Positions 53,249 through 57,950 of a DNA stretch of 64,000 nt are shown piece after piece. Made by a program: the position numbers and the translations under genes. Each line of letters opens with the position of its first letter. Position 1 is the stretch's first letter. The notes below the pieces were generated by a model, which made no database searches, had not been told where the DNA came from, and worked only from the letters and a program-made list of their open reading frames with translations. The DNA is from Sphingobacterium sp. UBA2700 (lineage in GTDB: Bacteria; Bacteroidota; Bacteroidia; Sphingobacteriales; Sphingobacteriaceae): assembly GCA_002354335.1 (NCBI GenBank), contig DELI01000029.1, positions 35,899-99,898 on the forward strand, written 5' to 3'.

Positions 53249-53893
53249 TTACGCATTCAGTTTGTTAGGTCTAAATCCCAACCATAGGGCGATGCCAACT
53301 AATACACCAACGAAAGCAATGCCCCAGCCAATCTTGCTGAAGAATACTGCCTACACATTGGGTTTGCTTTCGCTGCTGTTAGATGACGGGGCCTGACTTC
53401 GGTGCTGTTCCTCAACACGGGCAACTTGCTTATTGGTCGAATCCTGGTTTTCCTCCTGTCGTTCCTTTGTAGCATCCTTTCGTTCGGTGATCTTTTCCTT
53501 TTCTACCTTTTCCACTCAATCCGGTTTAGTTTCTATTTCGATTGTCAGCGTTTTATTAAGTGTATCGAGAATAGCTTTGACCTGTTGACCGGCGGAACCT
53601 CTAAGGAAGTTTTCCCCAGGTTTAAAATCCTCCTTTTGTGCGGTAACCCGGATCCTGCTACCCTCACGAATTGTCGTGGTTGTCGTTTCCCTTTCCGTTA
53701 CGACAGTTCCTTTGTCGACTCCCTTTTCCGTAATCTCGGTTTTCGCGCCGGTGGATTCGGTTAAAGTCTGCTCAACCTCTGCCCCCTCAACAATCTTCAA
53801 AGAGGACGATTTCTTCTGTTTGTTGCGAAGCGTACCACATGATGCAGCGGCCATCACCCTGACAGCGATTGCTAATAATTTAACCCCTTTCAT
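53249..53893 (-). pseudogene. Unimolecular spanin-like lipoprotein, broken by TGA and TAG
   Basis: The reading starts at ATG 53893 with a short hydrophobic segment and lipobox-like AAASC, then ~160 residues of charged, helical sequence, and ends in one membrane helix (GWGIAFVGVLVGIALWLGF) followed by RPNKLNA. It is interrupted in frame by TGA (53516-53518) and TAG (53351-53353). Lipid anchor at one end and a membrane helix at the other is the layout of u-spanins, which join inner and outer membrane in phage lysis. It follows an endolysin and holin-like genes. Confidence 0.6.
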
Positions 53894-53922
53894 CTATCGC
53901 TATTTTTAGCCTGTCTAATGAA

Positions 53923-54048
53923 TTATTTAAACTGTCTAATGACTTTAATAAGTGTTGGTTGCTTACGTTGCTCTATCGGCTTGCTTTGCCTAGATGAGGT
54001 AATGATACCCCACCATATCAACATCAGTAATATTAATGTCTTTCTCAT
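53923..54048 (-). CDS. Very small membrane protein of the lysis cluster
   Basis: A 41-codon reading: M-R-K then a hydrophobic helix (LILLMLIWWGIITSS) and a basic tail. Its ATG overlaps the stop of the gene before (TAATG). After the TAA at 53923-53925 the frame continues for ten codons to a TGA that overlaps the next ATG (ATGA), suggesting the TAA is itself a nonsense mutation. Confidence 0.5.
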   Translation of the reverse strand: MRKTLILLMLIWWGIITSSRQSKPIEQRKQPTLIKVIRQFK

Positions 54049-54221
54049 TACTTACCTCCAATCTTTTGAACGATGGTATCGACCTTGTTTAATGCTTTGT
54101 CCACTCCTTTGCGGACTCCTTCCTGCTTATTTTCTACGACCGCAGGAGCGCTTTCCTCAACTGCCCTAGGAACTTGCCTGCGTACTTCTTCTACGATCTT
54201 CGCAACTAGGTCCTCATTCAT
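54048..54221 (-). CDS. Small helical protein of the lysis cluster
   Basis: A 57-residue amphipathic helical protein (MNEDLVAKIVEEVRRQV start, later KALNKVDTIVQKIGGK). It overlaps the holin-like gene by 8 bp and the next gene by its stop codon, as phage genes do. Function unknown. Confidence 0.5.
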   Translation of the reverse strand: MNEDLVAKIVEEVRRQVPRAVEESAPAVVENKQEGVRKGVDKALNKVDTIVQKIGGK

Positions 54222-54366
54222 GGTTATGGATCTTATACACCAAGTAGATATTGAGCAATATGGATAATGTTCCAACCAGAGCTACGACATCCTTATACGT
54301 TAGTCCAAATATCTTTACAACCCCGTCGACCTTTCTGTCGATCATATCTTGCTTAACCTCGCTCAT
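54214..54366 (-). CDS. Holin-like single-helix protein
   Basis: A 50-residue protein from ATG 54366 with a polar N-terminus and one membrane helix (DVVALVGTLSILLNIYLVY) followed by a short charged tail. Size, topology and position 4 bp behind the endolysin suggest a holin or antiholin; there is no sequence proof. A longer reading into the endolysin is a shadow. Confidence 0.5.
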   Translation of the reverse strand: MSEVKQDMIDRKVDGVVKIFGLTYKDVVALVGTLSILLNIYLVYKIHNHE

Positions 54367-54370
54367 TCTC

Positions 54371-54822
54371 TTACTTACTGAAATATAAATCTGCTTCCGC
54401 TTTTGTTCTTCTTCGCAATCCAGCGAAACCTTTTCCCCTTGCCTTGTTCTACTTCGCAAATTCTTCACGTGTGTTCGGATCGCTTGGGTTGATGTTGAAC
54501 TTCTTCAATAGCCTCGATTTGCTGAGATGTGCCCCGCCCAAATTAAATGTGAAACTTACTAGAGCATCAAATTGGTTTTGTGTCAGCTTGAACTTAACCA
54601 ACCGCAATAAATCCCCCTCATAACCTTTCAAAATCTCCTTCAGCATGCAAGCAGCCTGATGTTCTGTCTACGGTCGGTCCTGCATCGTTACCTTCGCCTG
54701 TTAGGCAGGCAATACGTAAACCCGTATCGGATCGTCGAGATATCAATCGGATCTTTGTATGGTTTACCGTAGAATCCCTCAAAGCTCTTAATGAGCGCTA
54801 ATCCCTTTTCCCCCGTTTTCAT
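54371..54822 (-). pseudogene. Phage endolysin (GH24 lysozyme-like), decayed
   Basis: The start MKTGEKGLALIKSFEGF with a downstream Tyr/Gly stretch matches GH24 lysozymes (catalytic Glu in FEGF). It has a good Shine-Dalgarno sequence (AAGGAG), unlike its host neighbours. The frame is then lost twice around 54650-54710 (segments TGEGNDAGPTVD and TEHQAACMLKEILKGYEGD lie in different frames). Near the end TAG at 54449-54451 stands where the family has Trp (FAK-W-NKARGKGFAGLRRR), and the reading goes on to TAA at 54371-54373. It would have cut peptidoglycan at phage release. Confidence 0.75.
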
Positions 54823-54975
54823 TTCTCTTTCTCCTTTATGATATTTCAACTTTTACTTATATTGTACCTTTATCATTAGTTTAGTGTGAAGAGTCCAAGA
54901 GCCTCCCAGCTCATTGGGCTTATTTTAACTTAGCGGAATAGTAGCAGCTAGGCTTTTTTCATTATCTTTGAAATA

Positions 54976-55038
54976 ACATTTCAATGATAAGTTAATTAGT
55001 GAGCCTAGCGGAGCCAGAAACCGCTGGGCTTGTTTTTT
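54976..55038 (+). ncRNA. Array unit 1
   Basis: Box TATCTTTG at 54963-54970. A 6-bp hairpin TGAAAT/ATTTCA (54969-54974 with 54978-54983) overlaps the box. Terminator stem 55002-55011 with 55021-55030 (AGCCTAGCGG arm) and a T6 run. RNA start assumed ~7 nt after the box. Confidence 0.45.
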
Positions 55039-55065
55039 AAAAGATTTTCCAGTACATTTATATAG

Positions 55066-55135
55066 GCATTGTTTTCGAAGAGCAATGTTTCCATTGAGCC
55101 TGACGTTTCGCAATTCGTCGGGCTCTACCTTTTTG
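55066..55135 (+). ncRNA. Array unit 2
   Basis: Box TACATTTA at 55053-55060. First hairpin CATTG (55067-55071) with CAATG (55083-55087), then ATGTTTCCATT. Terminator stem 55096-55105 with 55116-55125 (10 bp, one G-T pair), then TACCTTTTT. Confidence 0.5.
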
Positions 55136-55252
55136 ACCTTCTCTTCAAAAGCGAATCTTTTTAAAATTGGCCCGGTGTTTGTCAAATACTAATCGCTGCA
55201 CGTTCTAAATATTTATTTTAAAGCCTTAGAATTTTCACTAACTTTAAATATC

Positions 55253-55322
55253 CGTTTCCAATATTGGAAGTATATTTTATATTAGAGAGCCTAACAATAA
55301 GCAGCTGTTAGGCTTTCTTTTT
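55253..55322 (+). ncRNA. Array unit 3
   Basis: Box TAACTTTA at 55239-55246. First element is a perfect palindrome TTCCAATATTGGAA (55256-55269). Terminator stem 55288-55296 with 55306-55314 (AGCCTAACA arm), then a T-rich run. Confidence 0.5.
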
Positions 55323-55355
55323 TGGCGAACCATTTTTTTCAGTATATTTGAGATA

Positions 55356-55415
55356 GGATTTATATTCATATGTTTATTTATTAGCCTAGCGTTTCATTCA
55401 TGCTAGGCTTTTTTG
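55356..55415 (+). ncRNA. Array unit 4
   Basis: Box TATATTTG at 55343-55350, an exact promoter match. The first hairpin is weak. Linker ATGTTTATTTATT, terminator stem AGCCTAGC (55383-55390) with 55402-55409, then T6. Confidence 0.45.
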
Positions 55416-55443
55416 ATTAGAAATATTTCCCTACATTTACGCT

Positions 55444-55522
55444 CACACTAGTTTCATAGGGTTAGTGTAAATATTGCAAAGCGTGGGGCTTGTGCTTGGC
55501 TACAAACAAGCTCCCTTTTTTT
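55444..55522 (+). ncRNA. Array unit 5
   Basis: Box TACATTTA at 55432-55439. First hairpin ACACTA (55445-55450) with TAGTGT (55463-55468). The terminator arm differs from the others: GGGGCTTGT (55485-55493) with 55506-55514, then T7. Confidence 0.5.
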
Positions 55523-55611
55523 AACCTTCAGTAAAGCCGTATTAAAGATTCCTTCTAAATTTCCATCGGTTTAGCTTTTTTCCTTAATTTATTTCACTAC
55601 ATTTATATATT

Positions 55612-55680
55612 AAAATTTTGTTAATAGGGCAAATGTTTTGGTTTTATTAGCCTAGCGCTGTCGTTTGCGCTAGGTTTTTT
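55612..55680 (+). ncRNA. Array unit 6
   Basis: Box TACATTTA at 55598-55605. First hairpin weak (TTTG 55617-55620 with CAAA 55630-55633). Linker ATGTTTTGGTTTTATT. Terminator stem 55649-55658 with 55667-55676 (AGCCTAGCGC arm), then T-run. Confidence 0.45.
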
Positions 55681-55706
55681 GTTTTAAAATTTTATACCTT
55701 TGTTTT

Positions 55707-55778
55707 ACCGATTTACATAAACGATGTTAATTGGTATGTTTTACAGCCCTGACGTCTCGCAGATCGTCAGGCTTTATT
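55707..55778 (+). ncRNA. Array unit 7
   Basis: Box TACCTTTG at 55695-55702, an exact promoter match. First hairpin is strong: 55707-55718 with 55724-55735, 12 positions with one mismatch and one G-T pair, loop AAACG. Linker ATGTTTTAC. Terminator stem 55745-55754 with 55765-55773 (one bulged C). Confidence 0.55.
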
Positions 55779-55809
55779 ATATAAATATTTTCTTATATTT
55801 ATATATTGA

Positions 55810-55879
55810 CATTGCTTAACATAAGGCAACGTTAATGTTAAGTGTAAGCCTGACGTGGGGAAGACGTCGGGCATTTTTA
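55810..55879 (+). ncRNA. Array unit 8
   Basis: Box TATATTTA at 55794-55801. First hairpin CTTAACAT (55815-55822) with ATGTTAAG (55835-55842), 8 perfect pairs. Terminator stem 55848-55856 with 55864-55872, then ATTTTTATT. Confidence 0.55.
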
Positions 55880-57950
55880 TTAAACCCCTACCGAGATAGG
55901 GGCTGATTGATTTAGCCAATAATTAACTCTACAAACCCATTCGATTGTGACGAAGGGGGAAACAATTATACCGATCTCTGATGTAGTTACTTCCCCGGCT
56001 ACCTTAACGTTGTTCGATTTGTTATATACCGCAATAGGCCTATCATTCCATTTGCTATCCACCTTAAGTGTATCTACCCCTGCGGATGCGTAGTCGATAA
56101 ATACATATAGTTTCTCTCCAACTTCGTATTGAAAATAAATGGACCGAATCCCTGATGGTTGTGTAAATCCTCGGTAATTCACCCCTTAAATTCCATCCCC
56201 TACAGGATAAGTTCGCTTAACCTTATCGTCCATAACGATAGGGTATGTTTTGCGTGTTGAAGCTAGATAAAAAGCCCTGTCAACATCTTCATTTCGATCT
56301 TTAGATGTGCCAATCGTCGGAACTATAGCTATATTAAATCGCAGGTCGAGTGTAGTTCCATTAGAAAGTCCATCTACATTTCTAACAGGCGCAACACCGT
56401 TCTCCCAGTGTGCAGATCTCAAGTCCATATTAGTCGCATAGTTGGATGCTGCGATATTTACAGGTATTCTGAAATCGTACACCATATTTCCCTCGCTAAT
56501 ACGCAATGATTACGGAATCATTCTGTTGTATGTTGGTGACCACGCTGGCCTAACATAGGTGTTTTGAGTACCGTAATGATGGGAGAGTTCAAGAGTTTTT
56601 CTAACAATGTGACACCACGAAAGAAGTATTTTATTCTTATCCCCTCTTTCATATCTATTTTTTACGGTTAAAATAGCGTCACCCTGACCGAAAGAAGGTC
56701 CTGCTGTATATCCACCTACAGGCCTATTTTCAACGATGAACGCTACCATCGTAGTTACGTCAATAATATCGTAGCTTTCATTGATAGTAATCTTATCCGA
56801 AGCATAGTAAATGCCGTCGCTAACTTTTTGACAACATTCAAGTCGTCAGCCTTAATTTCCTGTATAAGATTTTTTATACAAGGGAATAGCTGAACTGCAC
56901 TAGCCGATCCAACAGCAGAGTTTGTCGTATTCGATGCGCCGATACATATATTAAAGACTTGCGCGAAGAAGAAACGAAAAGCCATCCATTATCAGTAGCG
57001 GTATTTTGCGAGATAAGAGTTAGTGTATTTGCATCCGGTACCTGTAAAAGATAGAATTTCAAACCGCTACCATCTCGTCAAACACTACCAACATCGGAAA
57101 CAGTCTTGCCGTGCCCTGGCACTGTAGCGTTAACTACGCCAAAATAACCGTGATTGCTCCTTAAATACCTTCCACTGAAGTTAATAGGTGATGCCTCGTC
57201 AGAGCTTCCTCCATTCAGCCCAAATACTGCCGTAGCTTCTACATTATCCTCTTTGTTGATCTATTTGTTAGATGCAATATTGACAACGTTATTTGCTGAT
57301 GATCGAAATCTTAATCCTGTAACGATGTCGTATTGACATGAAATTACAGTTCCTATATAGAGGTAGTCCCCGATAGAACGAATTTTATACTTCTTTTCGC
57401 TAGTAGCTACCTTTGGGAGATATTCAGGTCTTACCTACCCGCTTTTATTATAAGATTGATATATTGAATTTAACGGAGCTTTACCCAGCAGCGCCATTAC
57501 GCCATTTCCGTCACCTGTGTGATTGAATCTGATATTCTTTTCCAAGGATACCGCTCCTGTTGGAACTTTGAAAGTATCGTTTATTTGTTTCCCATTTTAT
57601 GTGAGTGAGTAATTTATAAATCGCTACCATCGTCATTTACAGTTTAAGCAAGCCGCCTACAGAATTTAGAAAACGTAAGTTACCGTTGGTCGCGTGCCTT
57701 CCTATAATCGTGATAACGTCATATCCTATAACGGATAATGGCTGAGAATACGATGAGTTCGCATCATTTTTAAGTGCGCCGGTGTATAAAAGCGCACAGA
57801 CTACCAATCAATTAAGAATCAGACCACTTAACACGAAAAAAACTACTGTAGGGACAATAGTTTAGAAAATATAAGGGATACATCAAATGGTTACTTTGCG
57901 AAATTCAATGCTGTCTCATTCATATCGTTGTTGATATAGTAGTTTATCAA
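55880..57950 (-). pseudogene. Long phage tail-fibre-like gene, heavily interrupted
   Basis: Read from ~57950 leftward, one protein of ~690 residues can be followed through three frames. In-frame stops: TAA 57891, TAG 57843, TAA 57812, TAA 57597, TAG 57435, TAG 57261, TGA 57078, TAA 56510, TAA 56186. One-base shifts fall near 57840 (T7 run), 57800, 57630, 56965 and 56830 (A5 run). Between lesions the sequence is plainly coding (KYKIRSIGDYLYIGTVISCQ; FYLLQVPDANTLTLISQNTA; GGYTAGPSFGQGDAILTVKN). Strand-rich, Gly/Asn/Thr-rich repeats and the lysis genes downstream suggest a tail fibre or host-binding protein. Confidence 0.6.
55885..55902 (-). terminator. Terminator at the end of the tail-like gene
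   Basis: A 6-bp stem CCCCTA (55885-55890) with TAGGGG (55897-55902) that overlaps the last codons; on the minus strand TTTAAT follows. Confidence 0.5.

Follow-up and report, generated by a model that had tools for sequence, protein, structure and literature searches.

A tandem row of predicted self-terminating small-RNA genes beside an endolysin remnant in a decayed Sphingobacterium prophage

Results

The array and its neighbours

The window examined in the present study (the whole 64-kb stretch of Sphingobacterium DNA that was analysed) carries, on the plus strand and within approximately 1 kb of A+T-rich DNA, an array of nine units arranged head to tail. The array is flanked on the left by the remnant of a phage lysozyme-type endolysin gene (54374..54822, minus strand) and on the right by broken open reading frames (55880..57062, minus strand). 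The G+C content of four segments of the array was 0.32-0.36 versus 0.39-0.47 in segments of 53250-54999 and 55750-57499; other low-G+C segments lie farther left, near 49 kb. The endolysin remnant was detected by tblastn using the endolysins of six related loci (L172, L014, L012, L007, L285, and L174) as queries, and an ORF within it (54449-54646) corresponded to phrog_7. The initial annotation, which placed the array inside a prophage with an endolysin on one side and a tail gene on the other, was correct regarding the endolysin, which lies on the left on the minus strand, and the phage origin of the DNA; however, the endolysin is split over two reading frames (54374-54733 and 54700-54822), and the host phage is a decayed remnant. 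The tail gene obtained no homology support: none of four right-hand ORFs matched a PHROG, the one ORF examined against Pfam had no match, and no ORF of at least 60 aa from the loci of seven relatives matched the right-hand region at E<=1e-6 in tblastn. A BLASTN search against phage records gave matches to two records, over the endolysin only.

TAnnTTTG is the -7 element of Bacteroidota (sigma-ABfr) promoters. Eight boxes of the form TAnnTTT[G/A] with a terminator behind them were found on the plus strand at 54963, 55053, 55239, 55343, 55432, 55598, 55695, and 55794, with start-to-start distances of 90, 186, 104, 89, 166, 97, and 99 nt, and those at 54963, 55343, and 55695 are exact TAnnTTTG. 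The terminator hairpins of these eight units are GC-rich, have 7-13 pairs, begin 36-54 nt after the start of the box, and are followed by a T-run on the same strand. A strict scan thus recovered the eight boxes described earlier, including the three exact ones, and the estimate of eight or more units was extended by a ninth at 54865-54959, immediately upstream of the others, which was missed in the earlier list and was reported by a covariance model at E=0.013. When this box-plus-terminator scan was applied to both strands of the whole window, 31 terminators and 138 boxes combined into only nine units, eight of which fall in a single 0.9-kb stretch on one strand, and the clustering is, therefore, more than expected by chance. 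A separate scan of 3 kb gave 7 terminator-like sites versus 1.9 +- 1.5 in shuffled sequences, while its count of sigma-70-type promoters, a class that does not cover those of Bacteroidota, was 11 and not above that of shuffles (9.4 +- 3.2). The promoter region upstream of a unit often includes the T-tract of the preceding terminator, and the upstream consensus of 54 units consists of T-rich stretches with no sharp -33 element. Since the boxes were used in choosing the units, their invariance in the alignment is no proof of conservation.

Unit 0 (type C, 54865..54959, plus strand, as are all the following) has the box TACCTTTA, a 5' stem round a C-rich loop, GCCTCCCAG, and a terminator, and look-alikes of this unit are present in L014, L005 (two), and L171. 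Unit 1 (type B, 54963..55037) has the box TATCTTTG and the terminator GAGCCTAGCGG..CCGCTGGGCTT without a 5' stem, and unit 4 (type B, 55343..55415), with the box TATATTTG and a terminator, has no stable 5' stem. Unit 2 (type A, 55053..55131) combines the box TACATTTA with a CATTG/CAATG 5' hairpin (z of the 5' region, -3.2) and a terminator, and unit 3 (55239..55321) combines the box TAACTTTA with a 5' hairpin and a terminator. Unit 5 (55432..55521; box TACATTTA, 5' hairpin with the loop GTTTCATAGGG, terminator; z of the 5' region, -0.2) was missed by the covariance model at E<=1, even though it is included in the alignment of the model. Unit 6 (55598..55683) again has the box TACATTTA, a 5' hairpin, and a terminator. 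Unit 7 (55695..55780; box TACCTTTG, terminator) has a long 5' hairpin, TACCGATT/AATTGGTA, and a diverged homologue at L005 8197-8280. Unit 8 (55794..55880) consists of the box TATATTTA, a 5' hairpin, and a terminator, and the model matched it at 55796-55880. By eye, the double-length gaps of the array, 55132-55238 and 55522-55597, have the appearance of decayed units.

The variable 5' part and the predicted RNAs

The variable part between the box and the terminator measures 28-46 nt in the window units and is longer in unit 0. Its minimum free energy indicated a 5' hairpin of -4.5 kcal/mol or lower in seven of the nine units (by a longer parse in those at 54865, 55598, and 55695) and none in those at 54963 and 55343. 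The earlier proposal of two stem-loops per unit consequently holds for these seven and does not hold as a rule: among 53 parsed units from all arrays, one L014 unit being misparsed, the 5' structure was moderately better than that of shuffles (mean z -1.03), with p<=0.05 in 14 units, or in 11 of 44 after the removal of near-copies. In many units, approximately 25-35 nt of unstructured 5' sequence precede the terminator. A linker beginning with ATGTT, previously ascribed to most units, was seen by eye in five of eight, and a pseudoknot between the 5' loop and the linker was seen by eye in one unit.

The estimated length of the RNA had a median of 67 nt (range 57-98) in the 53 parsed units. No coding signal was found in them; closed ORFs of at least 8 codons were present in 16, versus 50% of shuffles, and are thus depleted rather than enriched. 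Besides the terminator, no structural element common to all units was found. Comparison with related loci, described below, gives good support for the array as a tandem row of predicted self-terminating small-RNA genes.

Several other classes of repeated elements were considered. One hairpin, GCCTAAC..GTTAGGC, resembles an integron attC site when set against the generally known attC consensus; the remaining hairpins do not fit, and attC-like sites were ruled out. CRISPR arrays and RNA anti-CRISPRs contain near-identical direct repeats, which are absent here, where repeats are short and only partly alike. Type III toxin-antitoxin RNAs (ToxI-like) have one promoter, regular repeats, and an adjacent toxin gene, whereas the present units are irregular, each has a box and a terminator, and the neighbours are the endolysin remnant and unassigned ORFs. 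No match to Rfam was obtained in the window at the gathering cut-off, and six sub-threshold matches (E 0.054-0.98), far below gathering, were taken as chance.

Recurrence in other genomes and phages

The covariance-model search proposed with the initial annotation was performed with a model (R1) of 44 units, which gave 103 matches at E<=0.5 over 23 loci. Twelve distinct arrays with at least three model matches were identified in Sphingobacterium genomes and viral contigs: those of the window (the same as L004), L005, L172, L282, L283 (two), L284 (the same as L286), L285, L174, L011, L026, and L029, with L027 regarded as a near-copy of L026. The named relatives with arrays, S. cellulitidis R-53603 and S. 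mizutaii NCTC12149, belong to this genus. Nine of the twelve arrays (window, L172, L282, L283 10680-11090, L285, L174, L011, L026, and L029) lie directly upstream of an endolysin detected by homology, on the opposite strand, and the tandem set facing against an endolysin thus recurs in other phages, with covarying stems as described below. The endolysin itself varies in type, being of the phage-lysozyme type (PF00959) or, in L282, of the phrog_181 type, and in several arrays the first box is, by eye, only approximately 7-25 nt from the endolysin start. The arrays at L283 5080-5910 and in L284 adjoin an endolysin start that looks decayed by eye.

No recognisable endolysin was found near the arrays of L005 and L171. 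The L005 array is surrounded by genes for a kinase, a nuclease-like protein, and UDP-galactopyranose mutase. That of L171 (G029), with one model match and three units by eye, has a GntR regulator, a TonB receptor, DUF892, and a peroxidase as neighbours, and the adjacent 158-aa ORF has no family assignment. A looser scan revealed four-unit arrays with variable parts of up to 68 nt at L012 6150-6740 and L013 7690-8330, where the model had only one and two matches, respectively; these arrays lie downstream of the lysis genes instead of at the usual junction and run in the same direction as the neighbouring genes. In L007 (G093), the same junction is present and the array is absent.

Among the 80 viral loci listed, out of 594 relatives, the strict scan placed antisense units on the upstream side of the endolysin in six (L011, L014, L025, L026, L027, and L029) and one sense-strand unit on that side in three. 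Across 93 genomes of the genus, 24 had any match at E<=0.02, and clusters were present, under stricter filters, in four (G001, G013, G037, and G060); across 201 genomes of the family, 21 had a match at E<=0.005, and matches outside the genus were always single. Three unit-specific patterns retrieved 31 viral stretches, three of which were known arrays (L292, the contig of L014; L303, which is L011; and L311, which is L026); the other 28 had no model match at E<=0.1, and the exact loop pattern was not found in viral contigs. A homologous array lies in a remnant region in both G037 and G060 (L284 8680-9480 and L286 9184-9820), and in L284 it is a few kb from a TraG-type conjugative-transfer gene (L284 12757-14745). 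Solitary strong model matches at L287 8419-8500, L288 8551-8625, and L289 7513-7581 (G022, G054, and G091; E <1e-4 per genome) could be single small-RNA genes or plain terminators.

Covariation and orientation

Nine of the ten pairs of the terminator stem were changed on both sides, a value reached by 5 of 500 shuffles, with 68 double-changed cells versus 22 in shuffles (none of 500 as high) and a covariation score of 0.568 versus 0.326 in shuffles and at most 0.210 in a slid control. A second covarying stem was found in a unit type with a CCACACA loop, which is represented by five units in L011, L174, L284, and, twice, L026, with CCACGCA in L284 and a shorter loop in one L026 unit. In its 5' stem, both partners had changed in four of the six pairs, a value reached by 11 of 500 shuffles; the covariation score was 0.667 versus 0.318 in shuffles (1 of 500 as high), for a structure that was derived from the same five sequences, a small number, on which it was tested. 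Type C, with a constant C-rich loop, showed weak covariation in its 5' stem, with 2 of 11 pairs, a count equalled or exceeded in 39 of 500 shuffles; a control slid by one column had 5 such pairs and thereby gave no support for this stem. Loss of the hairpins or random spacing in homologous loci, which would speak against small-RNA genes, was looked for and not encountered; the stems are kept by compensatory changes.

The loop retained in one hairpin type, together with the variety of units and their setting in phages, would be expected if the units encoded RNA decoys or inhibitors of a host defence or of an RNA-binding protein, with variants covering variants of the target. We consider this improbable because only the terminator is structurally common to all units, there is no known partner, and arrays also occur in prophage remnants.

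Hairpin-plus-T signals in 14 stretches were strongly one-way, 76 in the direction of the array and 1 in the opposite direction. A stack of terminators and promoters may act as a directional barrier that halts or hampers antisense transcription toward the late genes and leaves the RNAs as by-products, in favour of which stand the one-way terminators; nevertheless, one or two terminators would be enough for this purpose, and a conserved loop on a covarying stem, distinct recurring unit types in a common order (by eye), and a promoter box before most terminators are not expected of it, so that we regard a barrier as similarly improbable.

The same asymmetry bears on a cis-antisense role in superinfection exclusion or lysis control, similar to that of STnc6030. 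The units are perfectly antisense to the leader of a putative late transcript running from the tail genes to the endolysin; the RNAs of a resident prophage would silence the endolysin of an incoming relative, and read-through upon induction would titrate them. This is a serious rival because position and orientation are fixed and terminators in the late direction are nearly absent, so that late-sense transcription would meet almost none. Its further merits are that the placement upstream of the endolysin holds despite two endolysin types, that the first box is close to the endolysin start in several arrays, and that STnc6030 provides a precedent, as described in a review (PMC12197685). The arrays of L012 and L013, which are located elsewhere and co-oriented with their neighbours, and those of L005 and L171, which persist with no recognised endolysin nearby, do not conform to it, and cis pairing does not require that a loop stay constant in different phages despite changes in its stem. 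We therefore judge a cis-antisense role to be rather unlikely overall, albeit the strongest of the rivals.

Turnover of units and divergence of the array

The endolysins of L025-L028 are 93-100% identical to that of L026 (itself included); despite this, the model matched 8 units in L026, 6 in L027, 2 in L025, and 0 in L028, with nine units visible by eye in L026. BLAST between arrays revealed blocks of approximately one to three units shared by otherwise unlike arrays (L011 and L174; L009 and L182; the window, L014, L005, and L006). By eye, the order C, B, A is common to the window, L014, L005, and L171, and a longer order is common to L011, L174, and L285. Judged from these comparisons, units are gained and lost as modules, and the arrays are accessory.

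In G001, the nearest relative genome compared, the array of the window recurs at 97-99% identity, and another, divergent array is present as well. By eye, the G001 copy is interrupted by an IS3-like element (L004 9000-10220), which the window copy does not have. Between the two copies, the array had 16/1040 differences (1.54%), versus 105/3651 (2.88%) in the near flanks together (p=0.015), 65/2120 in the right-hand remnant (p=0.011), 40/1531 on the near lysis side alone (p=0.07), and 252/5963 in host genes (p=6e-6). Among 37 overlapping 1040-nt segments of 53.3-63.7 kb, 16 or fewer differences were found only in two, inside or mostly inside the array, and their neighbours had 18-21; within the array, units and spacers diverged alike (12/752 and 4/264). 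This lower divergence is no more than suggestive of selection on the array, and recombination could also be its cause. A stronger claim of purifying selection, from a comparison with all decayed phage DNA (156/4148, p=1.4e-4), was discarded because part of that flank is a far more diverged block (51/497).

The weakness of this signal, the strong variation in the number of units, and the two gaps in the window that resemble decayed units by eye are what would be expected if remains of terminators and promoters had piled up neutrally at an intergenic hot spot. The covariation of the terminator and CCACACA-type stems and the one-way orientation oppose this, and the absence of any function appears highly improbable, the least probable of the explanations considered.

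Discussion

Sequence comparison demonstrates a one-way tandem layout, recurrence upstream of the endolysin in related phages, compensatory changes in stems, and modular gain and loss. The explanation that we favour, tentatively and at a little short of an even chance, is that the array is an accessory ('moron'-like) cassette of nine separate trans-acting small-RNA genes of a temperate Sphingobacterium phage, which remained in a decayed prophage. Each unit would be transcribed from its own sigma-ABfr-type promoter box into a variable 5' part, mostly of 25-46 nt and either single-stranded or folded into a hairpin with an exposed loop, and would be closed by a Rho-independent terminator to yield an RNA of mostly 60-75 nt or thereabouts. 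Ordinary promoters may drive the synthesis of these RNAs during the prophage state, independently of late transcription. The least certain part of the proposal is that the differing loops and 5' ends serve as base-pairing seeds for trans regulation, with host mRNAs as the most likely targets, in the manner of FopS or svsR.

Trans action is preferred because a loop is kept across phages while its stem changes, because the arrays of L012 and L013 lie elsewhere, and because arrays occur without phage genes nearby (L171 and L005); the persistence of the latter two without recognisable adjacent phage genes also fits poorly with a purely phage-internal role. On the other hand, the fixed orientation against the endolysin is a hint of a cis role and counts against trans action. 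A search for targets in the own phage by duplex energy (21 units, four loci, 25 shuffles each) yielded no consistent target: 19 units were equalled or beaten by at least three shuffles, and the two that were not matched by shuffles point to unrelated sites.

An extension of the cis-antisense role, which we regard as unlikely and less probable than that role itself, is that swappable rows of up to nine small-RNA genes, antisense to the tail-lysis junction, constitute a modular RNA immunity cassette of temperate phages, through which a lysogen would prevent incoming relatives from lysing the cell or expressing their late genes, and which its own late transcript would titrate on induction. If so, the rapid turnover of units would reflect an arms race among phages, and the rows would be kept for some time after decay of the phage.

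Returning to the trans-acting cassette that we favour, the closest known small RNAs are the FopS RNAs of Bacteroides. Their genes are described as lying behind canonical sigma-ABfr promoters, 9 of them intergenic, 4 antisense, and 1 derived from a 3' UTR; the RNAs, multicopy paralogues of approximately 65-70 nt, share one common seed and are bound by RbpB, and a FopS sequence was also seen in a phage (PMC11697453). The present units resemble them in combining a predicted sigma-ABfr-type promoter, a 5' part, and a Rho-independent terminator, with an estimated median length of 67 nt; they differ in being arranged head to tail with different 5' ends. The FopS-type layout, a single-stranded 5' seed followed by the terminator, fits the units without a 5' hairpin, not those with one. 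No FopS match was obtained at E<=1 in 54700-55950, from a library that may not include FopS. A further difference from the RbpB-bound FopS RNAs is that an RRM_1 protein (RbpB-type) was detected in none of three Sphingobacterium genomes (G001, G013, and G029), with a positive control in Bacteroides ihuae, and Hfq was likewise not detected in these three genomes; both results weigh against the trans-acting reading.

Among prophage-encoded small RNAs of enterobacteria, the Pas genes have diverged in sequence after integration and occur mostly as one gene per prophage region with copies that are not tandem duplicates, while the array here has nine in tandem (PMC13192938). The prophage RNA svsR, which is reported to change the expression of host genes and to restrict infection by other phages, is a single small RNA instead of a row of units (PMC12803456). 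STnc6030 of phage BTP1 is a prophage RNA antisense to a late-gene region, a position that 9 of 12 arrays here would share with respect to a putative late transcript; it is described as one antisense RNA directed against the tailspike gene, in contrast to many short self-terminating units by an endolysin (PMC12197685). A cyanophage with Rfam-type RNA genes has also been described. As a rule, the prophage small RNAs in the literature found are single genes or one per prophage, and no description of tandem arrays of self-contained small-RNA genes in a phage was found in the open-access literature searched.

The arrays also resemble morons, which are extra DNA in the late region with its own promoters and terminators and a different base composition, even though morons are described as genes that benefit the host and the units here look non-coding (PMC8065619). 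At the sequence level, each unit has its own promoter and terminator; the base composition differs from that of the surroundings (G+C 0.32-0.36 versus 0.39-0.47); and most arrays (9 of 12) are located by the endolysin, at a junction that is empty in L007. We suggest that the array represents a new variety of prophage-encoded small RNAs and that the arrays beside the cell-bursting gene of related phages point to a previously undescribed set of putative phage regulatory RNAs.

Little is known about RNA regulation without Hfq in Bacteroidota. If our reading is correct, up to nine different RNA genes in a row, each with a promoter and a terminator of its own, would represent a novel form of packaging for phage regulation, and the arrays provide a natural set of variants for probing the roles of phage RNAs in this phylum. 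Two named strains with arrays beside an endolysin, S. mizutaii NCTC12149 and S. cellulitidis R-53603, would allow this to be tested directly. The genome of S. cellulitidis (G013) contains four separate arrays with different sets of units in four places: L283 5080-5910, L283 10680-11090, L282 9110-9500, and L172 10480-11005.
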